From Tenacibaculum sp. 190130A14a (GTDB lineage: Bacteria > Bacteroidota > Bacteroidia > Flavobacteriales > Flavobacteriaceae): 64,000 nt of DNA. Positions 20,629-63,328 of this stretch are shown here, piece by piece (positions within the stretch are counted from its first letter, which is position 1; every line of letters begins with the position of its first letter). The stretch covers positions 3,636,501 through 3,700,500 of the forward strand of contig NZ_OZ040189.1 in the NCBI RefSeq assembly GCF_964048965.1, written 5' to 3'. Under the pieces are notes generated by a model that did no database searches, was not told where the DNA came from, and was given only the letters and a program-made list of their open reading frames with translations. Both the position numbers and the translations under genes were made by a program.

Positions 20629-20695
20629 AATGTTAATTTTTAAGGTACGCGACCTTGATTATTAATAATTCTTACTATCTCGTAGTAAGTGGGCG

Positions 20696-54899: not shown

Positions 54900-55067
54900 T
54901 TATAAGCAAACAGAATTCATAGGCAAAGCACATAACGGAGCTTCCCATTCACCTCCACACAACATACATTGTTCTTTTGTGGTAGGCCAAAATCCGAATC
55001 CTCCAGTAACATTCTTTTGTTGAGATTTGTTTAAAATCTTACCTAAATTTTCTATATGATTTTTCAT
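54900..55067 (-). CDS. GG-leader Cys-rich peptide precursor (4 Cys)
   Basis: A 55-residue precursor with the leader MKNHIENLGK ... VTGG (23 residues), the most diverged of the set. The 32-residue core has four cysteines, with CMLCGG and Trp residues. I start at the ATG at 55067; a longer frame reaching 55199 would run over the neighbouring precursor gene on the same strand. It sits between the two paralogous six-Cys peptides in unit A. Confidence 0.75.
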   Translation of the reverse strand: MKNHIENLGKILNKSQQKNVTGGFGFWPTTKEQCMLCGGEWEAPLCALPMNSVCL

Positions 55068-55089
55068 AATTTGAAAACTGGCTTTAAGA

Positions 55090-55263
55090 TTAATACCAAA
55101 TACAACCAAATCTTGTACATCTACCTGCATCACAGAATTCTCCCCATTGAGTTTGTACACAACATCTGCTTCCGCTTCCGGTACAAGATCCCCAACCACC
55201 GTTTACTTCTTTTTGTTCTGCATTAGTTAACGCTTTTCCTAAGTTTAAAATTGATTTTTTCAT
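55090..55263 (-). CDS. GG-leader Cys-rich peptide precursor (6 Cys), first of unit A
   Basis: A 57-residue precursor translated directly from the sequence. Leader MKKSILNLGK then AEQKEVNGG; core of 34 residues with six cysteines (GSC, RCC, EFC, GRCTRFGC). It is paralogous to the core at 54701-54886. It is the first gene after pseudoknot copy A, whose last base lies 30 bases upstream of the ATG. It overlaps in position with part of a longer open frame of the next gene, which I reject. Confidence 0.82.
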   Translation of the reverse strand: MKKSILNLGKALTNAEQKEVNGGWGSCTGSGSRCCVQTQWGEFCDAGRCTRFGCIWY

Positions 55264-55293
55264 AATAATAAAGTTTAATTAGTTTGATTAAAC

Positions 55294-55340
55294 CCCTGAA
55301 CTATTTAAAGACACTCAAGGTTTATGTCTACTCTTCGCGA
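55294..55340 (-). promoter_or_regulatory. pseudoknot-like leader element, copy A
   Basis: On the minus strand, stem 1 is AGACAT (55324-55329) with GTGTCT (55309-55314). Loop 1 is AAA, stem 2 is CCTTGA (55315-55320) with TCAGGG (55294-55299), and loop 3 is TTAAATAGT. The TCGCGAAGAGT box (55330-55340) precedes it. It lies upstream of the first unit A gene. Confidence 0.6.
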
Positions 55341-55479
55341 TAAAGTATCATTCAAAAACTCATTATATGCAATACATACAATAGTTAAGGAAGAGAGAAA
55401 TTACTATATAAAAGCTAGCATCATATATGACATATAATTAGCTCTCTTCCTATAACCTTTTTATGAGCTTTTATGTTTT

Positions 55480-55653
55480 TTAATATGCTCTACATCTTCC
55501 TGTTAGACAAATCAAAACGCAATCTTTAGGACCACAATCCTGATTAGAACTACATCTTTCCATATGTCTACAGTCAAGGCTCTTACTTCCGTTAATAGCT
55601 TTTTGTTCTGCTCTATTAAGAACTTTCCCTAAGCTTAACATCGATTTTTTCAT
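55480..55653 (-). CDS. GS-type leader Cys-rich peptide precursor (6 Cys)
   Basis: A 57-residue precursor read directly from sequence. Leader MKKSMLSLGK then AEQKAINGS: the double-glycine is replaced by Gly-Ser, a variant some C39 peptidases accept. The 34-residue core has six cysteines (DC, RC, DC, DC, IC, RC) and a basic GRCRAY end. It is the second gene of unit B. Upstream of it lies a decayed version of the leader element (55664-55715), with a TTCAGG half-site. Confidence 0.75.
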   Translation of the reverse strand: MKKSMLSLGKVLNRAEQKAINGSKSLDCRHMERCSSNQDCGPKDCVLICLTGRCRAY

Positions 55654-55715
55654 AATAATATGATTGTATTAATTCAGTTAAGTTCCTGAATTATTATCAA
55701 CAGTAATTAAAGAGA

Positions 55716-55904
55716 TTACTGTAATATTCCCGTTAAACAAGCATGTGTTTGCATCGTACCTAAACAACATCCATTAGACAATGGAAAACCACCACAAGCA
55801 AGACATCTGCTTGGTTCATAAGTTGGACATCCAGTTCCTCCATTGATTTGTTTTTGGGCTTCCTTATTCAACTTCTGACCTAAGTTTAAAATTGATTTTT
55901 TCAT
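55716..55904 (-). CDS. GG-leader Cys-rich peptide precursor (6 Cys), first of unit B
   Basis: A 62-residue precursor. Leader MKKSILNLGQ ... INGG; 39-residue core with six cysteines (TGC, SRC, LACGG, GCC, HAC) and a hydrophobic end. It directly follows pseudoknot copy B, which lies between it and the HlyD gene. Its leader DNA is nearly identical to those of its paralogues. Confidence 0.82.
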   Translation of the reverse strand: MKKSILNLGQKLNKEAQKQINGGTGCPTYEPSRCLACGGFPLSNGCCLGTMQTHACLTGILQ

Positions 55905-55934
55905 AATAATAAGATTTAATTAATTTGATTAAAT

Positions 55935-55981
55935 CCTTGAACAGTTTAAAGACACTCAAGGTTTTTGTCTATCCTTCGCGA
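55935..55981 (-). promoter_or_regulatory. pseudoknot-like leader element, copy B
   Basis: On the minus strand, stem 1 is AGACA (within 55965-55970) with TGTCT (55950-55954). Stem 2 is CCTTGA (55956-55961) with TCAAGG (55935-55940), loop 1 AAA, loop 3 TTAAACTGT. The TCGCGAAGGAT box (55971-55981) lies 5'. It starts 9 bases after the HlyD stop. Confidence 0.6.
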
Positions 55982-55989
55982 AAGGTTTT

Positions 55990-57279
55990 TTATTTGATAA
56001 TATTCTTAAGTTGATAGAAAAATCTCTCTATCAAACGTAAATCTTCTGTTACAATATCAGCTGTCCCCTGCATTTCTTGTCGAAATGCTATTTCTTTTCC
56101 GTAGGTTGTTTTTAAATCTTGTGGTAAATCAACATCTATTAAATAATTGCCTTTTTCATCTGGCAACAACGAAATAAACTTCACTTTTCCATTGAGTTCT
56201 CCAAATTCATCTGAAGGATAGTTCAATAGTTTTATTTGTACTTTTTGTCCTTTTTTAATTTTTCCTGAATTGGCTGCAGGTGCTGTTATTTTTCCTATGT
56301 AAGAAGTACTTATATCTGGAATAATTGTAAAAATCAAATCACCTTGTTGTACATTTTGATTTTTATTCCAATATGATAAAAAAGATACTTTCCCATCTAT
56401 AGAACTAGTTAAGGCATACTGTCTTTCCCAATCTTTAATAGCCTTTCTTAAATATAAAAATGATTGGATTGCCTTCTTTTGCAATCGAATATCATTTTGC
56501 GTCTTCTTAATCGATGTTCCCTTTAAGTTTCTATTAGAATTACTAATAAGTTCACGCATTTGAGAAATGGAAGTTTCTAAACTTTGATGTGCTCTTTGAG
56601 CTTGTAAAAAAGCCACTTCTCTCAGTCCCTTTTCTTTAGCAGAAATAACTCCCTTTTCATACATTTTACGGCTTCGTTCTAAATCACTTTCTTTTATAAG
56701 GAGCTCCTTGCTACTTATTTCTCTTTGAGACAAAAGGATTTGTAGCCTACTCCTTGATTCAAACACAGACATTTGATTAGCAAGACTCTCAGATTTATAT
56801 GGAGTTAGTTCTTTATTTAAAATATACTCAGAGTAATCGTTTTCAAATTGCGCATAACTAGTAGTAATATCTCCTAAAATCATAGGAGGTATTTCATCTA
56901 TAGGAAACTTGAATTTATCAGAATGAATTTTAATGGTATCTACGATACTTTTTAATAACAAAACATCTTTATAAGAAGCACTGTTTTCTATAACAGCTAA
57001 TATTTCTCCAGACTTTACTTTACTGTCATCAGTAGTTAAAAAAGTTTCAAATCTTCCCTTTGCATTGGCATATATCTTTTCTGGAGGAAATGAAGTGGTT
57101 ACCATTACCTGTGAAGAAATAACATCTGGATACCTCACAAACCAAGAGATAAACAATAACATTAAAATTAACAAAAGAAACAAGGTATTCCCCCAACGAA
57201 TCATCCAATTGGGCATTTGAGTTAAAATCTCCTGTACTTCTTCACTTCGAATTTCTATTTCTGAATTACTTTGTGGCAT
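55990..57279 (-). CDS. HlyD-family periplasmic adaptor for peptide export
   Basis: A 429-residue membrane fusion protein. A short cytoplasmic N-terminus is followed by one membrane helix (about residues 29-48, LFLLLILMLLFISWFV). Then come a biotinyl-lipoyl/beta-barrel region and a long coiled-coil hairpin (about 150-290: ISSKELLIKESDLERSRKMY). The barrel ends GKVSFLSYWNKNQNVQQGDL. It joins the inner-membrane ABC exporter to an outer-membrane channel, which is not in the window. It follows four peptide genes in unit C, after a terminator-like hairpin. Confidence 0.9.
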   Translation of the reverse strand: MPQSNSEIEIRSEEVQEILTQMPNWMIRWGNTLFLLLILMLLFISWFVRYPDVISSQVMVTTSFPPEKIYANAKGRFETFLTTDDSKVKSGEILAVIENSASYKDVLLLKSIVDTIKIHSDKFKFPIDEIPPMILGDITTSYAQFENDYSEYILNKELTPYKSESLANQMSVFESRSRLQILLSQREISSKELLIKESDLERSRKMYEKGVISAKEKGLREVAFLQAQRAHQSLETSISQMRELISNSNRNLKGTSIKKTQNDIRLQKKAIQSFLYLRKAIKDWERQYALTSSIDGKVSFLSYWNKNQNVQQGDLIFTIIPDISTSYIGKITAPAANSGKIKKGQKVQIKLLNYPSDEFGELNGKVKFISLLPDEKGNYLIDVDLPQDLKTTYGKEIAFRQEMQGTADIVTEDLRLIERFFYQLKNIIK

Positions 57280-57298
57280 AAATTTTAGATAAAATGTA

Positions 57299-57328
57299 AA
57301 AGAGGAGGGATCATAATTCCTCCTCTTT
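57299..57328 (-). terminator. hairpin between the last unit C peptide and the HlyD gene
   Basis: AAAGAGGAGG and CCTCCTCTTT form a 10-bp stem; on the minus strand it continues TACATTTTAT. The weak T-run suggests partial readthrough, giving more peptide mRNA than adaptor mRNA. Confidence 0.6.
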
Positions 57329-57335
57329 GATATAA

Positions 57336-57527
57336 TTAATAAGCTACAATACAGCAGTTATTTCTACAAAATGTAGGTGCTCCTGGTAAAATATTATTTA
57401 CACAATCATTACAATTGTTTACATAATAAGAACCAAAACCTCCACAAGTGTTTCCAAAGCCTCCGTTAACGGCTTTTTGTTCTGCTTTATTCAAGCTTTT
57501 TCCTAAGTTTAATATTGACTTCTTCAT
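57336..57527 (-). CDS. GG-leader Cys-rich peptide precursor (6 Cys), last of unit C peptides
   Basis: A 63-residue precursor. Leader MKKSILNLGK ... VNGG; 40-residue core with six cysteines (NTCGG, NNC, DC, TFC, NCC) rich in Asn and Gly. The ATG at 57527 is chosen because it starts the shared leader; an in-frame codon at 57569 overlaps the preceding gene. It is followed by a hairpin and then the HlyD gene. Confidence 0.82.
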   Translation of the reverse strand: MKKSILNLGKSLNKAEQKAVNGGFGNTCGGFGSYYVNNCNDCVNNILPGAPTFCRNNCCIVAY

Positions 57528-57541
57528 TCTAGTACGTATTA

Positions 57542-57697
57542 TTAATGAGGCATATAGTAACAAATACAATCTATAATAATATAGTTTGACCCATCACATA
57601 TAGGAAGCACCTTGCACCCTTTAATCGATCCTCCATTAATATTCTTTTGATTGTCTTTATTAAGTACCTTCCCTAAGTTTAAAATTGACTTCTTCAT
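57542..57697 (-). CDS. GG-leader peptide precursor (4 Cys)
   Basis: A 51-residue precursor, the shortest. Leader MKKSILNLGK then NQKNINGG; 28-residue core with four cysteines (KGC, PIC, IIDC, IC) and a hydrophobic NYIIID stretch. It starts 5 bases after the previous gene's stop and ends 14 bases before the next ATG, so it is embedded in unit C. I found it by translating the gap, since it is shorter than 60 codons. Confidence 0.75.
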   Translation of the reverse strand: MKKSILNLGKVLNKDNQKNINGGSIKGCKVLPICDGSNYIIIDCICYYMPH

Positions 57698-57702
57698 AAC
57701 TA

Positions 57703-57903
57703 TTAAAATTCAATTCTGTTTCTACAAACTTCTGAAGTACATGTATAAAATGGGTCACTTGCTATAAAAGGATAATTACTTATCCAAAACCCTTGCGTTC
57801 TTGTACAACAAAATTGATATAATGTAGGAATAAACCCTCCATTAATTCGTTTTTGGTTTTCTCTATTTAACGCTTTCCCTAAGTTTAAAATTGACTTTTT
57901 CAT
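57703..57903 (-). CDS. GG-leader peptide precursor (4 Cys)
   Basis: A 66-residue precursor. Leader MKKSILNLGK ... INGG; 43-residue core with four cysteines (QFCC, YTC, EVC) and many aromatic residues, especially in GFWISNYPFIASDPFY. It is second in unit C, 12 bases after the stop of the first gene. It has the most aromatic core and may act on membranes, which is inference only. Confidence 0.8.
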   Translation of the reverse strand: MKKSILNLGKALNRENQKRINGGFIPTLYQFCCTRTQGFWISNYPFIASDPFYTCTSEVCRNRIEF

Positions 57904-57915
57904 TCTATATCTATT

Positions 57916-58113
57916 TTAAATTCCGAAACAATTAACGCTTACTAAAACTCTCATTTTACAGTTATCTGGAAGTGCATGATATTGCTCACAAGTACCACAT
58001 CCCATTCCAGGAATTCCATAGCAAATTGGCCCTGGGCAGCTACTTCCTCCATTAACTTGTTTTTGCTCAGCTTTATTTAAAGCCTTACCTAAGTTTAAAA
58101 TTGACTTTTTCAT
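57916..58113 (-). CDS. GG-leader Cys-rich peptide precursor (6 Cys), first of unit C
   Basis: A 65-residue precursor. Leader MKKSILNLGK ... VNGG; 42-residue core with six cysteines (SSC, PIC, MGCGTC, NC, NC) and Gly/Pro-rich first half. It follows pseudoknot copy C, whose 3' end lies 28 bases before the ATG. It heads a four-peptide run ending at the HlyD gene. Confidence 0.82.
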   Translation of the reverse strand: MKKSILNLGKALNKAEQKQVNGGSSCPGPICYGIPGMGCGTCEQYHALPDNCKMRVLVSVNCFGI

Positions 58114-58141
58114 TTTTTAAATGATTTATAATTTAATAAAT

Positions 58142-58188
58142 CCTCGAACAGTTTAAAGACACTCAAGGTTTGCGTCTATTCTTCGCGA
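58142..58188 (-). promoter_or_regulatory. pseudoknot-like leader element, copy C
   Basis: Minus strand: stem 1 AGACGC (58172-58177) with GTGTCT (58157-58162), one G-T pair. Stem 2 CCTTGA (58163-58168) with TCGAGG (58142-58147), one T-G pair. Loop 1 is AAA, loop 3 TTAAACTGT, with TCGCGAAGAAT upstream. The changes versus other copies keep pairing. Confidence 0.6.
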
Positions 58189-58263
58189 AAAAATTATTGA
58201 AACAAACAGACCTCTTATCTTTTATAAGGTAATCTATTTATTTGCTAAAGCATAAAACATGTT

Positions 58264-58288
58264 CATCACACGGCTAATTATTGTGATG
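58264..58288. repeat. inverted repeat in the gap before unit C
   Basis: CATCACA (58264-58270) and TGTGATG (58282-58288) are exact 7-base inverted repeats 11 bases apart, in the 211-base gap between the Gly-rich peptide gene and copy C. It may be an operator or a weak terminator; it has no long T-run. Confidence 0.35.
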
Positions 58289-58399
58289 TAAATATGATGC
58301 GTAAAATGCTTATTATTTTGATAAATTCTGATGAGCATACTTTACTGTTTTCATTAACTCATCTATTTATGTTTTGATTCTAATTTCAAACAATCACTA

Positions 58400-58618
58400 T
58401 TAAACCGGATCTACAGGACCTCCTCCTGAACCTCCATTTCCAGGATTTCCGTTTCCTCCTCCACCTGATCTACAACTACAAAAAAGTGGCTTTGCTATCA
58501 TACTTTGTGTTAATGGGTCTAATGCACACCATTCAAAACAAGGTATTCCACCTCCAGTAATTGTTTTTTGCTCAACTCTATTTAGGGCTTTTCCTAAAGT
58601 TAAAATTGATTTTTTCAT
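58400..58618 (-). CDS. GG-leader peptide precursor with Gly-rich tail (4 Cys), unit D
   Basis: A 72-residue precursor, the longest. Leader MKKSILTLGK ... ITGG; 49-residue core with four cysteines in the first half (IPC, EWC, FC, SC) and a low-complexity Gly/Asn/Pro tail from about residue 52 ending GGPVDPV. Such flexible tails are unlike the other cores and might be a receptor-binding or linker part. It is alone in unit D behind copy D, just downstream of the exporter gene. Confidence 0.78.
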   Translation of the reverse strand: MKKSILTLGKALNRVEQKTITGGGIPCFEWCALDPLTQSMIAKPLFCSCRSGGGGNGNPGNGGSGGGPVDPV

Positions 58619-58649
58619 AATTAAAAAATTTTAAGTTTGGTTAGTTGTT

Positions 58650-58685
58650 CCTTGAGCTATTTAAAGACATTCAAGGTTTATGTCT
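58650..58685 (-). promoter_or_regulatory. pseudoknot-like leader element, copy D
   Basis: Minus strand: stem 1 AGACAT (58680-58685) with ATGTCT (58665-58670), fully paired. Stem 2 CCTTGA (58671-58676) with TCAAGG (58650-58655), loop 3 TTAAATAGC. It lies three bases after the exporter stop and lacks the TCGCGAAGA box because coding sequence is there. Confidence 0.6.
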
Positions 58686-58688
58686 GTT

Positions 58689-60875
58689 TTATTTACCTAG
58701 GTCTAATTGATTCTTTACTAAGTGATAATAACTTCCTTTTAATTTGATTAACTCTTGATGAGTTCCTTTTTCAATGATCTTTCCTTTGTCTAATACCACA
58801 ATTTGATGTGCATTTTTTACCGTACTCAACCTATGGGCAATCACCACTGCAGTTTTATCTGCAAAAAAGGTGTTCAGTTTTCCCATAATTACCTTTTCAT
58901 TATTGGCATCTAAAGCACTAGTAGCTTCATCAAAGAATAAGAACTTCGGATTTTTATATACAGACCTAGCAATGAGTAAACGTTGCTTTTGTCCTGTACT
59001 TAGTCCATTACCTTCACTTCCTATCTTGGTATTGTATCCTAAAGGCAAGCTCTCTATATAATCAGAGATGTTTGCTACATCGATAGCATGTGCTAGCTTC
59101 TCTTTATCTACATAATCTTCTCCTACAGCAATGTTCTTAGCAATAGAATCATTAAAGATGTATCCTTCTTGCATCACCACTCCACAGTTTCTTCTCCATT
59201 CCTTTTGTGAGATATTCTTTAAATTGAAATTGTTAATCATAATATCTCCTTTGTCTACTTGGTAAAAGCCTAACAATAGTTTCATAAGTGTAGACTTTCC
59301 ACTACCACTAACTCCTACAATAGCGGTAGTCTTATTAGCCGGTATTTCAAGAGATAAATCTTTTAACACAGGTTCTAATCCTCCAGTATATCTAAAAGAG
59401 ATATTGTTGAGTTTGATGGCTGCATTTGGAGGAATTTGTGTTACTTTTTCATCTTCTGGTTTTTCCTCATCTTCCATGTTGTGTATTTCTCCTAACCTGT
59501 CTACCGATATTTGTGCATCTTGTACATCTCTCATAAAATTGATTAGCTGTGTAATAGGACCATTTAATTGTCCTACGATATAACTAATAGCCATCATCAT
59601 ACCTAGTGTGATGTTTCCATCAATTACTAGTTTGGCAGAGAGTATGGTAATGAACATGTTTTTAAGTTCGTTGATAAAGTTAGATCCTACACTTTGTGTT
59701 TGTTCTAAGGCTAAACTTTTGGTCGCTACTTTAAACAACCTGGCTTGTACATATTCCCAATTCCATCGCATACGTCTTTCGGCATTATGGAGTTTTATTT
59801 CCTGCATTCCATTGATCAGCTCAATCACTTTACTTTGTTCTTGACTTACTTGAGAGAATCGTTTGTAATCAAGCTCTTTTCGTTTCTTAAAGAAGAAAAG
59901 TACCCAACCGAAATACAAGACACTTCCCAGTACAAAAACACCAAATATTTGTAAGCTATAGTATGCCAGTACAAAACTGAATATGATTAAATTGAAAAAG
60001 GAGAACAATACTGTTAAAGAGGATGTCGTTAAGATTCTCTCAATACGTTTATGATCATTGATTCTTTGTAATAAATCTCCTGTCATTCTCACATCAAAAT
60101 AAGAAATAGGTAATTTCATTAACTTGATGAAAAAATCGGAAATCAAAGAAATATTGATTCTTGTACTAAGATGTAATAGAATCCAACTTCTAATAATCTC
60201 TAAAGAAGCTTTTCCAATAAACAAGAACAACTGTGCAAATAAGATTAAGTACACAAAGTTGATGTCTTGATTCTTAATACCAACATCTACCACACTTTGG
60301 GTTAAAAAAGGAAGAATTAATTGTAATAAACTTCCTGCTAATAGCCCAATGATTAACTGAACAACAAACTTTTTGTATTTAAAGAGATATCTGAAAATAA
60401 ATCCAAAGCCAAACTTTTCATCTTCTTCAAACTCCTCGCTGTAAAACTTAGGAGTAGGTTCAACAAGTAACGCAATACCTTCTTCTGTGTTTTCATCGGC
60501 ATTGTTACCTATCCAATGTTGAATGAATTCTTCTTTGGTAAAGGTGATGAGCCCATGAGCAGGATCAGAAATGTATACTGTATCCTTTTTGATTTTATAT
60601 AAAACTACATAGTGATTTTTATTCCAATGGATAATACACGGAAAAGGAGCTTCTTTAAGCTTATTAAACGCTAGTTTTATCCCTAAGGATTTGAATCCGA
60701 TTGATTCAACAGCCTCACTTAATCCTAATAAACTACTACCTTCTCTAGTGGTCTCACTTAATTTACGTAGTTGTTGTGTGTTAATTGTTTTACCATAATG
60801 TTTTGCAATGATCTTGATACATGTTGGACCACAATCTTTTGCTTCAGTTTGTCGATAGTTTGGAAATCTTTTCAA
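58689..60875 (-). CDS. peptidase-containing ABC exporter (C39 type)
   Basis: A 728-residue PCAT. The C39 peptidase (residues 1-140) has the oxyanion Gln9, catalytic Cys15 in AKDCGPTC, the His in NKNHYVVLY and the Asp in SDPAHG. Five or six membrane helices follow (about 165-440), then the ATPase with Walker A GVSGSGKST, signature LSTGQKQR and Walker B FLFFDEATSALDA. It would cleave the leaders after GG and export the cores. All catalytic residues are present, so it is predicted active. A perfect hairpin lies just upstream of its start. Confidence 0.93.
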   Translation of the reverse strand: MKRFPNYRQTEAKDCGPTCIKIIAKHYGKTINTQQLRKLSETTREGSSLLGLSEAVESIGFKSLGIKLAFNKLKEAPFPCIIHWNKNHYVVLYKIKKDTVYISDPAHGLITFTKEEFIQHWIGNNADENTEEGIALLVEPTPKFYSEEFEEDEKFGFGFIFRYLFKYKKFVVQLIIGLLAGSLLQLILPFLTQSVVDVGIKNQDINFVYLILFAQLFLFIGKASLEIIRSWILLHLSTRINISLISDFFIKLMKLPISYFDVRMTGDLLQRINDHKRIERILTTSSLTVLFSFFNLIIFSFVLAYYSLQIFGVFVLGSVLYFGWVLFFFKKRKELDYKRFSQVSQEQSKVIELINGMQEIKLHNAERRMRWNWEYVQARLFKVATKSLALEQTQSVGSNFINELKNMFITILSAKLVIDGNITLGMMMAISYIVGQLNGPITQLINFMRDVQDAQISVDRLGEIHNMEDEEKPEDEKVTQIPPNAAIKLNNISFRYTGGLEPVLKDLSLEIPANKTTAIVGVSGSGKSTLMKLLLGFYQVDKGDIMINNFNLKNISQKEWRRNCGVVMQEGYIFNDSIAKNIAVGEDYVDKEKLAHAIDVANISDYIESLPLGYNTKIGSEGNGLSTGQKQRLLIARSVYKNPKFLFFDEATSALDANNEKVIMGKLNTFFADKTAVVIAHRLSTVKNAHQIVVLDKGKIIEKGTHQELIKLKGSYYHLVKNQLDLGK

Positions 60876-60903
60876 TGAATGTTCTCTTATAATATTATAA
60901 CAA

Positions 60904-60937
60904 ATCTAAAGTCTATAATACCCCATAGACTTTAGAT
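60904..60937 (-). terminator. 13-bp perfect hairpin between the unit E peptides and the exporter
   Basis: ATCTAAAGTCTAT (60904-60916) and ATAGACTTTAGAT (60925-60937) pair fully around an 8-base loop, 28 bases upstream of the exporter ATG. On the minus strand the stem is followed by TTGTTATAATATT, a moderate T/A tract, so termination or mRNA stabilisation is possible. Confidence 0.62.
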
Positions 60938-61080
60938 CAAAATGCCTACTAATTTAAAGTTTATTTTTCTCGTTGACCTTATTTTCAACAAACAGCTACA
61001 AGCTCAAACTTACAACTGATAAAGAAAACCATATTCAAAAATTTATCCTTAAAATATGATTATCTATCTTCTAGGTGTTC

Positions 61081-61293
61081 TTAGATACAACAGCTTGAAG
61101 AAGGGTGATACTGACATCCAGAAATATATGTACCTCCACAACTAGGGTTGTTCAATGCTACATGACTTGTTGTACAACATCGCAGCGCTGGGTTACAGCA
61201 TCTAGTTGGTTTTAAAGGACCAAATCCACCATCAATCTTCTTTTGTTCTGTTCTATTTAAAACTTTTCCAAGGTTTAAAATTCTATTTTTCAT
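61081..61293 (-). CDS. GG-leader Cys-rich peptide precursor (8 Cys), second of unit E
   Basis: A 70-residue precursor. Leader MKNRILNLGK ... IDGG; 47-residue core with eight cysteines, including three CC pairs (TRCC, LRCC, SSCC), the most in the family. Four disulfides are possible. It follows the first unit E gene after 21 bases and precedes the hairpin before the exporter gene. Confidence 0.82.
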   Translation of the reverse strand: MKNRILNLGKVLNRTEQKKIDGGFGPLKPTRCCNPALRCCTTSHVALNNPSCGGTYISGCQYHPSSSCCI

Positions 61294-61314
61294 TGTACGT
61301 TATTTTTTCAATTA

Positions 61315-61506
61315 TTAATAACACGCCCAACATTGTCCGTTACAATAATCTGTACCGTACGTTCCCATTGAACAATGAGATGGGTTTACAATGATTCCAC
61401 CTGTTCCGCCACAACAAAACTTAAGAGATGGTCTAATACCTCCATCAATTCGCTTTTGTTCAGCCTTATTCAAGGCTTTTCCTAAATTCAAAATTGATTT
61501 TTTCAT
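61315..61506 (-). CDS. GG-leader Cys-rich peptide precursor (6 Cys), first of unit E
   Basis: A 63-residue precursor. Leader MKKSILNLGK ... IDGG; 40-residue core with six cysteines (KFCC, SHC, DYC, GQC, WAC). The ATG at 61506 starts the shared leader; an upstream in-frame codon at 61551 falls inside pseudoknot copy E. It is the first peptide gene downstream of the VKOR-thioredoxin gene. Confidence 0.82.
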   Translation of the reverse strand: MKKSILNLGKALNKAEQKRIDGGIRPSLKFCCGGTGGIIVNPSHCSMGTYGTDYCNGQCWACY

Positions 61507-61531
61507 AATTAAAATATTAAGGTTACTTTTG

Positions 61532-61577
61532 TGGCGAACATTTAAAGACACTCACCATATGTGTCTATTCTTCGCGA
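61532..61577 (-). promoter_or_regulatory. pseudoknot-like leader element, copy E
   Basis: Minus strand: stem 1 AGACAC (61561-61566) with GTGTCT (61546-61551), fully paired. Stem 2 TGGTGA (61552-61557) with TCGCCA (61532-61537). Here four of six stem 2 positions differ from the other copies yet still pair. Loop 3 is TTAAATGT, one base shorter. TCGCGAAGAAT lies 5'. Confidence 0.62.
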
Positions 61578-61596
61578 GAGAATATTGTTCAAAACG

Positions 61597-61618
61597 CAAA
61601 GCCCTTTTTAGGGCTTTG
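61597..61618. terminator. terminator after the VKOR gene
   Basis: CAAAGCCCT and AGGGCTTTG form a 9-bp stem with a 4-base loop. The better T-run is on the plus strand; on the minus strand it ends GCGTTTTG. Confidence 0.7.
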
Positions 61619-61626
61619 TTTTTATT

Positions 61627-63216
61627 TTATCGAATCGTTACCAATTCTTGATATTTTTCTTCTAGTTCTTCTATAAAGAAGATTAGGTCTGTTCTACTGT
61701 ATTCTTTAGGGAATGACCTTCCGTTTACTAATATTTCTGGAGTGAAATTAATTGAGTTATCTTGACACCAAGTATTTTCTCTTTCTAATTCTTCGATATA
61801 CAATTCTTTTTGATTGCAATTACCATAAGTTTGCAACCACTTTTCTGGCTTTTCTCCTCCATAAATGGCATCCATAGCTTTTAAACAAGCCTCACTTCCT
61901 TGGGTATGGTATATTTCTATGAGACGACTAGTAATTTTTACAGCATCACCTTCTTTGTCCTGAATATTGATATTGAACCTGATTTTGATCTTTACATTAT
62001 TTGCATAGCGATGTAAAATCTCATCAATATGCTCATGCACAGGCTTACAATGTCCACAAAATGGATTGGTTACAATGGTTAACTCTAAAGTTGAGTTAGG
62101 ATTTCCAAAAACAATCTCTTGACTGTTTGTTATTTGGGTATGTAATTGCGGTGATTTTTGTAATAAATTATCAAACAACGTAAAGTTTCTTTTAAACTTA
62201 ACATGTTCTATTTTTTCTTTTCTTAATTCAGTTACTTCTGCTACTAATGGTTTTATATAATACCAAGCTAACCAGGTTATTGAAGCAACGATACCAAAAG
62301 TAACAAAGCTGGTTGGTACAAATTCAGTGATATACGTATTGGTAATTAAAGGAACTGCTGCTTGTAACCATAAAACCCCTACAATACTCAAACATAACAT
62401 ACACCATTTTTTTACAACAGCATATTGATAATAGATAGAATATAAAGTAACTGGAATTGCTAATAAACTAATGGTATAGGCAATGGCAGGATTAGAAATT
62501 TGTGCTAACGTTAATAGAGTAAGTCCAGAAAAATATAACACACTTAAATCACTAAGTTTATATCCTTTTATAATTTCTGCTCCTTTAGAGGTTAATACAG
62601 CATCACAATCTTTCTTATCATCTGCTCCTGAACAAAAGGCATTTCCGATAGATGTTTTTAATCCTAATTCTTGTTTAACAATAGCAATACTTGTAACAAT
62701 TCCGACAACAGATAATACGAAATAGCCAAGTGTAAATAAATTAACTGAGCTTTGATATAAAGAGAAACCTGTTAAACCAATTAATAAACCAAGAGCTATA
62801 AATTTGATAAGATTAGATTTCTTCTCTGGCTGAACACTCTCACCTGTTTTTTCTACAGCAACAATAATTCCTGTAAACTTTTGAAGAAACTCTTCTTCGG
62901 TATATTTTTCTTTTTTGTTCTCAGAATTGTAAATAAAATAGTCTTGTTTCTTTCTTTCAACCACAATAAGGTCTTTTCCCTTATCTGTGGATATTTGCGC
63001 TAAGAAAGAATCAGGTAATTGTACCAAAGTTTCTTTATTAGCAGGAACATCTGCAGCAACATTTTCAATATTAAAATGATCTAACACACCAGTAATAGCA
63101 TGTAAACTTGGGTATGATGGATGACTTTGTATTTGGAACGCTAATTCGTCTTTATCAAATGAAATAGCATTGCTCTTTAATAATCTTTGAACTAAAATAA
63201 ATAATGTGTCTTGCAA
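61627..63216 (-). CDS. VKOR-thioredoxin fusion with N-terminal degenerate C39-like domain
   Basis: A 529-residue membrane protein in three parts. Residues 1-125 resemble a C39 peptidase fold (HPSYPSLHAITGVLDHFNIE) but lack the catalytic Cys, and the His/Asp region reads DYFIYNSENK. Residues about 140-320 form the VKOR domain, with paired cysteines in FCSGADDKKDCDAVL and the active-site CMLC (KWCMLCLSIVG). The C-terminal thioredoxin-like domain has NPFCGHCKPVHEH. VKOR-DsbA fusions oxidise thiols to disulfides in the envelope. Next to even-Cys peptides, this is the likely disulfide maker. Confidence 0.88.
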   Translation of the reverse strand: MQDTLFILVQRLLKSNAISFDKDELAFQIQSHPSYPSLHAITGVLDHFNIENVAADVPANKETLVQLPDSFLAQISTDKGKDLIVVERKKQDYFIYNSENKKEKYTEEEFLQKFTGIIVAVEKTGESVQPEKKSNLIKFIALGLLIGLTGFSLYQSSVNLFTLGYFVLSVVGIVTSIAIVKQELGLKTSIGNAFCSGADDKKDCDAVLTSKGAEIIKGYKLSDLSVLYFSGLTLLTLAQISNPAIAYTISLLAIPVTLYSIYYQYAVVKKWCMLCLSIVGVLWLQAAVPLITNTYITEFVPTSFVTFGIVASITWLAWYYIKPLVAEVTELRKEKIEHVKFKRNFTLFDNLLQKSPQLHTQITNSQEIVFGNPNSTLELTIVTNPFCGHCKPVHEHIDEILHRYANNVKIKIRFNINIQDKEGDAVKITSRLIEIYHTQGSEACLKAMDAIYGGEKPEKWLQTYGNCNQKELYIEELERENTWCQDNSINFTPEILVNGRSFPKEYSRTDLIFFIEELEEKYQELVTIR

Positions 63217-63255
63217 AATTGAAGTTTTTTAGAAGCGTTTTTTTTGTTGGGTTAC

Positions 63256-63263
63256 CAAATTTA
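63256..63263 (-). promoter_or_regulatory. -7 promoter element for the VKOR gene
   Basis: TAAATTTG on the minus strand, 39 bases upstream of the ATG at 63216 and just after the upstream terminator. Confidence 0.45.
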
Positions 63264-63299
63264 TCTTTTTAATTTTTTTAAAAAACTAAAAAAGCCATA

Positions 63300-63328
63300 A
63301 AAAAAGTAAGGTTATGCCATACTTTTTT
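63300..63328 (-). terminator. terminator between regulator and VKOR gene
   Basis: AAAAAAGTA and TACTTTTTT pair, with inner GG/CC, and the minus strand continues TTTTTTTATGG. Confidence 0.62.

Follow-up and report, generated by a model that had tools for sequence, protein, structure and literature searches.

The window analysed here, a stretch of 64,000 nucleotides (nt) from Tenacibaculum sp. 190130A14a (contig NZ_OZ040189.1, positions 3,636,501 to 3,700,500), carries on its minus strand, between window positions 55294 and 61566, five copies of a 35-36 nt element, each ahead of a gene for a short peptide with a double-glycine leader. In all copies the order is the stem 1 5' arm, AAA or ATA, the stem 2 5' arm, the stem 1 3' arm, a TTAAA-containing loop of 8-9 nt and the stem 2 3' arm. 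Copy 1, recovered as a pattern match at 61532-61566, pairs AGACAC with GTGTCT in stem 1 (61561-61566/61546-61551) and TGGTGA with TCGCCA in stem 2 (61552-61557/61532-61537), with ATA as loop 1 (61558-61560) and TTAAATGT as loop 3 (61538-61545). Copy 2 (58650-58685; AGACAT/ATGTCT and CCTTGA/TCAAGG) begins 3 nt past the stop codon of a C39 ABC transporter gene, and copies 3 (58142-58177; AGACGC/GTGTCT with one wobble, CCTTGA/TCGAGG), 4 (55935-55970; CCTTGA/TCAAGG in stem 2) and 5 (55294-55329; AGACAT/GTGTCT, CCTTGA/TCAGGG) follow. The initial annotation had described five such elements on this strand in this order, and all were found at their sites; its elements stood, while the upper coordinates of four of the five took in an upstream TCGCGA box, and its stem 1 pairings held in general, the exception being copy 4, where AGACAA faces GTGTCT with an innermost A-G mismatch and leaves a stem 1 of 5 bp. 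A 26-base core pattern allowing up to three mismatches matched five times in the window and never in 100 dinucleotide shuffles. Nested folding energies of five elements (four from the window, one from a second cluster described below) were no better than those of shuffles (z -1.82 to 0.05), by a method that ignores pseudoknots. Five partly duplicated copies are by themselves weak evidence, and it is the wider alignments that carry the case.

The ATG of each downstream peptide gene stands 25-31 nt past the window copies and opens a leader resembling MKKSILNLGKALNKAEQKxINGG. All on the minus strand, the gene after copy 1 occupies 61315-61506 (ATG at 61506; product starting MKKSILNLGKALNKAEQKRIDGG), that after copy 2 58400-58618, that after copy 3 57916-58113, that after copy 4 55716-55904 and that after copy 5 55090-55263; further peptides without an element of their own lie behind the copy 3 peptide (57703-57903, 57542-57697 and within 57336-57569). 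The same strand encodes a C39-peptidase ABC exporter (58689-60875; PF03412, PF00664, PF00005), which would cleave off the double-glycine leader, a HlyD-type adaptor (55990-57279; PF13437) and a protein combining VKOR, thioredoxin and C39-like parts (61627-63216; PF07884, PF13462, PF03412), which may provide disulfide formation for cysteine-rich peptides. The closest relatives of the peptides of this genome come from Tenacibaculum, and relatives of the precursor peptides are mostly called "hypothetical protein" where they are named.

Further copies lie elsewhere in the genome, which is a single contig of 3.94 Mb. With up to two mismatches the core pattern matched 14 times and its reversed control not at all: five matches lay in the window, six at C1:3142572-3154463 in another cluster, one at C1:3705493, and two were chance-like. 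One more divergent copy raises the count to at least 13, so the five reported copies, all genuine, were not the whole set; 13 was also the yield of R1, a search model in which stem 1 alone is paired (both R1 and a second model, R2, treat the stem 2 letters as unpaired sequence). Across these 13 copies, 98.1% of cells were paired and five pairs showed two-sided changes, a result matched in 0 of 500 shuffles. The second peptide cluster (L009, G000:C1:3138500-3158000) lies about 540 kb from that of the window, and its C39 ABC (two, 728 aa each), HlyD and VKOR genes are near-identical to those at window 55000-63300, which suggests, as far as sequence can tell, a recent duplication or gene conversion. 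This cluster also encodes a LytTR response regulator and, judged by eye, a histidine kinase.

Searches of further genomes confirmed that the observation goes well beyond the five reported copies, and the model search of Flavobacteriaceae that had been proposed found the element in many genomes of the family. At E <= 0.1, R1 matched 68 of 397 Flavobacteriaceae genomes, in 57 of 237 genera, although each E-value refers to a single genome, so that chance alone could account for about 40 of the 397 at this threshold; at E < 0.001 it matched 36 of 397, two of which (G005 and G201) are chance-like. The richest family genomes hold 12-14 copies, and one congener holds 20. At E <= 0.01, matches were found in 12 of 296 genomes of an order-wide draw and in 8 of 296 of a phylum-wide draw, the two draws sharing genomes with each other and with the genus itself; outside the order, the only match of the phylum-wide draw (G793) was chance-like. 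Weak matches are lost in searches over 40 genomes, whose filters are stricter. Among the matches listed, named contigs bearing the core pattern belong to Tenacibaculum, Aquimarina, Winogradskyella, Bizionia, Lacinutrix, Dokdonia, Olleya and Psychroserpens, and three loci (L151, L159 and L182) place the element before a double-glycine peptide in metagenome-assembled genomes labelled, as given, Bacteroidales, Cytophagales and Cyclobacteriaceae. The matches in G005 (L094), G201 (L098) and G793 (L120), as well as L150, looked like chance.

Two interleaved helices, both with compensatory change, were found in the wider alignments, as expected of an H-type pseudoknot. Alignment A3 (146 matches, 128 distinct rows) was fitted to stem 1, the pairing of stem 2 being absent from the search model; 97.0% of its pair cells were standard, all 12 of its pairs showed two-sided change, and sliding the partners left at most 55.2% paired. 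Its 155 two-sided cells compare with 37.8 after shuffling, a null that, like the other shuffles here, ignores relatedness among rows. For three of the 12 pairs a single row supplies the change, L094 in one case; leaving out L094 and L098 (126 rows) gave 97.1% paired, 151 two-sided cells and 11 of 12 pairs. Stem 2 was 95.4% paired in A3 despite being unpaired in the model. Alignment A4 (137 distinct rows) gave 97.4% paired cells, seven pairs with two-sided change and 140 such cells against 36.0 in shuffles; the pattern used to fetch loci L128-L207 leaves little of stem 1 free and sets the GA/TC end of stem 2, which limits stem 1 variation, and A4 therefore tests mainly the other stem 2 pairs. 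Among 135 distinct arm sets of fixed geometry, stem 2 was paired at all six positions in 88 with its own partner, whereas swapped partners reached this in 24.7 on average and 33 at most (200 shuffles). These sets comprise 19 distinct stem 1 helices and 51 distinct paired stem 2 helices, 22 of them purely Watson-Crick. The initial annotation's claim of H-type pseudoknots with real covariation in the leaders of the peptide units is thereby upheld.

The strand on which this structure is selected left a trace in the remaining cells. The non-Watson-Crick cells of A3 number 93 G-U, 14 A-C and 30 others, where independent columns would give 153 G-U and 81 A-C, and 38 of the 93 G-U cells sit at the innermost stem 1 pair; the 124 A4 rows absent from A3 add 92 G-U, 13 A-C and 25 others. 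Such an excess of G-U over A-C is expected if the coding-strand RNA, rather than the duplex, is under selection. Taken at the level of sequence, the alignments support an element that would form an H-type pseudoknot in RNA. In its commonest geometry, stem 1 has 6 bp, loop 1 has 3 nt and starts with A, stem 2 has 6 bp, no nucleotide lies between the stems, and loop 3 has 8-9 nt with a fixed AA within UUAAAU-G. Loop letters were nearly invariant in the 207 copies with a 42-nt core (loop 1 A1 in 206, loop 3 A3 and A4 in all 207, G7 in 193), a count that selection by a sequence model favours. Copies found through their peptides in genomes without an R1 match had similar loop letters and new stems, such as GACAC/GTGTC with ACTGTAC/GTACAGT and GACTG/CAGTC with ACTTGA/TCAAGT.

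The position of the element relative to the peptide genes was equally regular. In 259 of 273 distinct contexts, an ATG within 60 nt opened a frame of at least 25 residues, and in 250 of the 273 it stood 22-30 nt past the core. A glycine followed by G, A or S, a loose motif, occurred within residues 13-45 in 253 of the 273 contexts; the element precedes such leader precursors in 253/273 contexts by this measure and, when the peptides are taken as the starting point, 69/120 have it upstream. Perfect parses (252 of 273) are the best of many geometries and have no null, whereas the peptide-first test has one. In that test, a profile of leaders only, built from 30 that follow a knot and thus free of RNA sequence though not of that choice, identified 120 genes in 22 of 159 genomes; a sequence-free pseudoknot score of at least 14 was reached in the 85 nt upstream of 69 of them, compared with 0.4 per shuffled set over 20 rounds. 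The genome under study accounts for 13 of these knots (37 genes) and the others for 56 (83 genes); 19 of the 22 genomes have one or more. The downstream leaders were of clearly different types, including the KLxLxKxxI type. Clustering of neighbours at 81 loci (8 kb or less, except for one, the 12-kb end of the window; families of at least 100 aa) returned the exporter family at 27, VKOR at 24, HlyD at 19 and a TPR protein at 14; no other neighbour family of at least 100 aa was common to more than 14 of the 81 loci, and no clear trans-acting factor emerged among them.

Two R2 matches (L111 and L112) led to a second form of the element in Chryseobacterium, the genus being taken from the names of peptide relatives. 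Here stem 1 is GTCAA/TTGAC and stem 2 CCTGA/TCAGG, loop 1 is mostly AAA or AAT, and loop 3 mostly contains TAAATG. The corresponding pattern gave 29 matches, spread over 19 of 197 genomes of that family and confined to a single genus, and none in the reversed control; both stems are fixed by the pattern, and these copies carry no weight on covariation. An ATG lay 23-28 nt downstream in 26 of 28 distinct copies (29 are distinct under a wider key). A perfect TAnnTTTG box, that of the -7 promoter element, was present 17-22 nt before stem 1 in 29 of 29 copies and in 0 of 29 control regions, and the knot should therefore be transcribed in Chryseobacterium. In mapped promoters of Flavobacterium psychrophilum this box occupies -12 to -5 (PMC9723704, in part), from which 13-18 nt of transcript should precede the Chryseobacterium knot. 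Transcription starts downstream of the element had been named as the finding that would point to a DNA operator; the starts predicted in silico for Chryseobacterium lie upstream. The element is, on the sequence evidence, a conserved cassette before double-glycine precursor genes of Flavobacteriaceae, with its second form in Chryseobacterium.

In the main set the upstream DNA was different. A palindromic TCGCGA box stands 5 nt upstream of stem 1 at four window copies (61572-61577, 58183-58188, 55976-55981 and 55335-55340, minus strand), copy 2 being without one. Of 271 copies, 150 have the exact box before stem 1, in 136 cases at a distance of 5 nt, and far-upstream control positions have it in 0 of 271; 25 further copies of the 271 had it with one mismatch, and it sits inside a wider consensus, TATTCTYTCGCGAAGAAT. 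It is probably DNA of an operator or of an unusual promoter, apart from the RNA element. Among 93 copies with neither TCGCGA nor a TTGCA/G box, 28 lay within 30 nt after a codirectional stop, as did 40 of 146 boxed copies. Because the unboxed copies after upstream stops keep the knot, the knot persists without the TCGCGA box.

We propose that the element is a transcribed leader knot with a cis effect on the translation initiation of its mRNA, most likely exerted by docking the 30S subunit with the help of bS1 or some comparable protein; we hold this reading, which draws partly on analogy, at a probability of roughly 0.48. In these bacteria, which rely little on Shine-Dalgarno pairing, the knot would border the ribosome site on its upstream side, its fixed loop adenines would make tertiary contacts or offer a recognition surface, and docking would ensure that short, abundant precursors are initiated strongly. 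The knot is followed by an A/U-rich initiation region whose length hardly varies: A and T make up 90.5% of the linker to the start codon, and A occupies -3 in 88% of linkers, -12 also in 88% and -11 in 76%. Ribosome profiling in Flavobacterium johnsoniae found that A at -3, -6, -12 and -13 and low structure favour initiation, and placed the -14 to -11 region near bS1 (PMC6847099, in part), so the knot ends just upstream of what resembles a strong initiation site. In Escherichia coli, a 5' pseudoknot of the tisB mRNA is needed for bS1 and 30S binding and its stem 2 is required (PMC7708055, in part); it is the closest worked example, an H-type knot too and likewise tied to a small peptide, lying in the mRNA's 5' leader, and it works with an unstructured stretch, to which the A/U-rich linker here may correspond. 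We infer a cis-acting translation element because the linker resembles a strong initiation site and because of the tisB precedent. The element is compact, multi-copy and strongly covarying, and precursor genes can be located by its sequence; if this reading is right, it would also be a natural test bed for how bacteria in which Shine-Dalgarno pairing plays a minor part set their initiation rates.

Several observations weigh against this proposal, as do the relatedness of rows and the selection of loops stated with the counts above. The docking step is an analogy, and the two knots differ in build, with stems of 9 and 5 bp and loops of 0, 2 and 3 nt in tisB as against 6, 6, 3, 0 and 8-9 here; the tisB standby region is separated from a sequestered ribosome site by about 100 nt, and the part of PMC7708055 considered shows no Bacteroidota link for the standby knot. 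Adenine at -6, though a positive determinant in F. johnsoniae, was present in just 27% of linkers. The pseudoknot threshold was missed by 51 of the 120 peptide genes, which comprise array-internal genes, 11 dispersed singletons of the genome under study and genes with divergent, decayed or absent elements, and the knot is therefore not required for this gene class as such. At three loci (L105:935, L188:429 and L061:866) the knot precedes genes other than peptides. A perfect TAnnTTTG box was near 1 of 271 main-set copies, compared with 6 of 271 far controls, and main-set transcription starts are therefore not predicted. The nearly invariant loops are equally compatible with a dedicated protein or ligand. 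At L188 and L061, the next long frame begins 51-52 nt away, and a peptide gene may have been lost there.

That last property of the loops underlies the strongest alternative, a regulated switch in which the knot binds a trans-acting signal, be it an RNA-binding protein, a peptide or processed product, or a small molecule, and turns the precursor set on or off. Loop letters that stay nearly invariant while the stems vary are what such a switch would show, and so are the 12-20 copies that the richest genomes carry in several places, mostly before one functional class; the differing leader types downstream likewise indicate an element that tracks function rather than a single gene line. A direct junction between the stems together with a 3-nt loop 1 would leave no obvious pocket, however, no Rfam riboswitch appeared among the matches at the E-value threshold, and beyond the exporter, VKOR and HlyD no neighbour family reached more than 14 of 81 loci, so that we regard a switch as a possible but minority explanation. 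A broader version, a genome-wide riboregulator in Flavobacteriia in which a common trans-acting factor reads the fixed loops and co-ordinates many unlinked double-glycine precursor genes, strikes us as doubtful; were it true, much of a bacterium's peptide arsenal would be under one RNA-level control.

The knot could also act as a stabiliser of the 5' end or as a processing boundary, blocking decay or marking the site where a longer transcript is cut to release the peptide mRNA. Some copies do lie a few nucleotides past an upstream stop, as copy 2 does behind the ABC gene, and if TATTCTYTCG acts as a -7 box, the transcripts of boxed copies would start a few nucleotides upstream of stem 1. Such a role does not call for a start codon at the near-constant distance of 22-30 nt, and the 13-18 nt that would precede the Chryseobacterium knot mean that it is not always at the extreme 5' end; we consider this account rather unlikely. 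That the repeats are a DNA operator or promoter element and only resemble a pseudoknot is very improbable: the TCGCGA box upstream of 150/271 copies may itself be such an element and main-set starts are not predicted, but interleaved two-stem covariation, the excess of G-U over A-C, the near-fixed distance to the start codon, the retention of the knot without the box and the upstream starts predicted in Chryseobacterium all speak for RNA. Hardly credible is an element with no function of its own, its copies alike through duplication of peptide genes with their leaders; the near-identical exporter genes of the two clusters fit this, whereas the 51 paired stem 2 helices, which differ even inside one genome, and the Chryseobacterium copies, with other stems and the same loop letters, do not.

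Returning to translation initiation, two other routes by which the leader might act on translation were rejected. One was that the loop 3 ATG opens an upstream reading frame or provides translational coupling: 161 of 244 copies have this ATG, its frames are spread 56/51/47, and its stop falls before, over or after the gene start in 69, 29 and 56. The initial annotation had likened the geometry to that of frameshift pseudoknots; a frameshift role is not supported, since the element lies in the leader, outside coding sequence and with the start codon downstream, and the loop ATG occurs in all three frames.

We rate the element as a new RNA family of a known kind, that of leader pseudoknots. A scan of the whole window with Rfam 15 gave no family at the gathering cut-off at any of its elements, and a scan at an E-value threshold of 10 loci and of window 55000-61800 gave sub-threshold matches only, namely two to rimP, on the opposite strand, and one to ceN115 that spans copy 1 in the element's own orientation (18.8 bits against a cut-off of 44); the earlier inability to name an Rfam family thus agrees with these scans. 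No description of the motif was recognised in the literature searched, which did not extend to most subscription papers or to a 2017 RNA-motif survey. To our knowledge, structured leader RNAs of exported-peptide precursors (bacteriocins or those resembling ribosomally synthesised and post-translationally modified peptides) have scarcely been described. The preQ1-I riboswitch class is likewise a very small leader H-type pseudoknot with an A-rich loop 3; the present element differs in having no Rfam match, a 3-nt loop 1, a direct stem junction and exported-peptide genes rather than queuosine genes downstream. The leader pseudoknot of phage gene 32 nucleates a protein in translational autoregulation, whereas the element here has no known protein partner. 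STAXI motifs resemble it as compact pseudoknots from comparative genomics; they occur as two or three repeats close to genes whose products handle DNA (PMC2864571, in part), whereas the elements here are single and stand before peptide genes. Flavo-1 RNA (RF01705) is a Bacteroidota motif widespread in Flavobacteriaceae, with matches sense and antisense to transcripts and no functional clue (PMC9723704, in part), and differs in that the present element has no Rfam match.

Elsewhere in the window, a ribosomal protein leader, S16-Flavobacteria (RF03138), was detected at 20632-20666 on the minus strand with 48 bits. The TPR family found beside the elements at 14 of 81 loci matches PF13424 just under its cut-off, and a sigma-70-region-2 protein and another repeat-like protein occur at 7 of 81 loci each. 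At L236 (G090:C4, about 139088-139250, minus strand), a peptide gene has a simple hairpin-like leader, AAATACCTATCTAAATTAGGTAGGTATTT, instead of the pseudoknot. A second DNA motif, CGGTnnnnCCTTACTTnnnnTAnGG, with the look of a direct repeat and presumably LytTR-operator-like, has 10 sites in the genome under study at up to two mismatches (control 2): window 63295-63319 (minus strand) and G000:C1 1412661, 1517912, 1607392, 2052580, 86375, 1330853, 1515277, 1573170 and 3609874. Seven of these sites lie upstream of dispersed singleton double-glycine peptide genes without a pseudoknot, and one lies upstream of the VKOR gene of the window.

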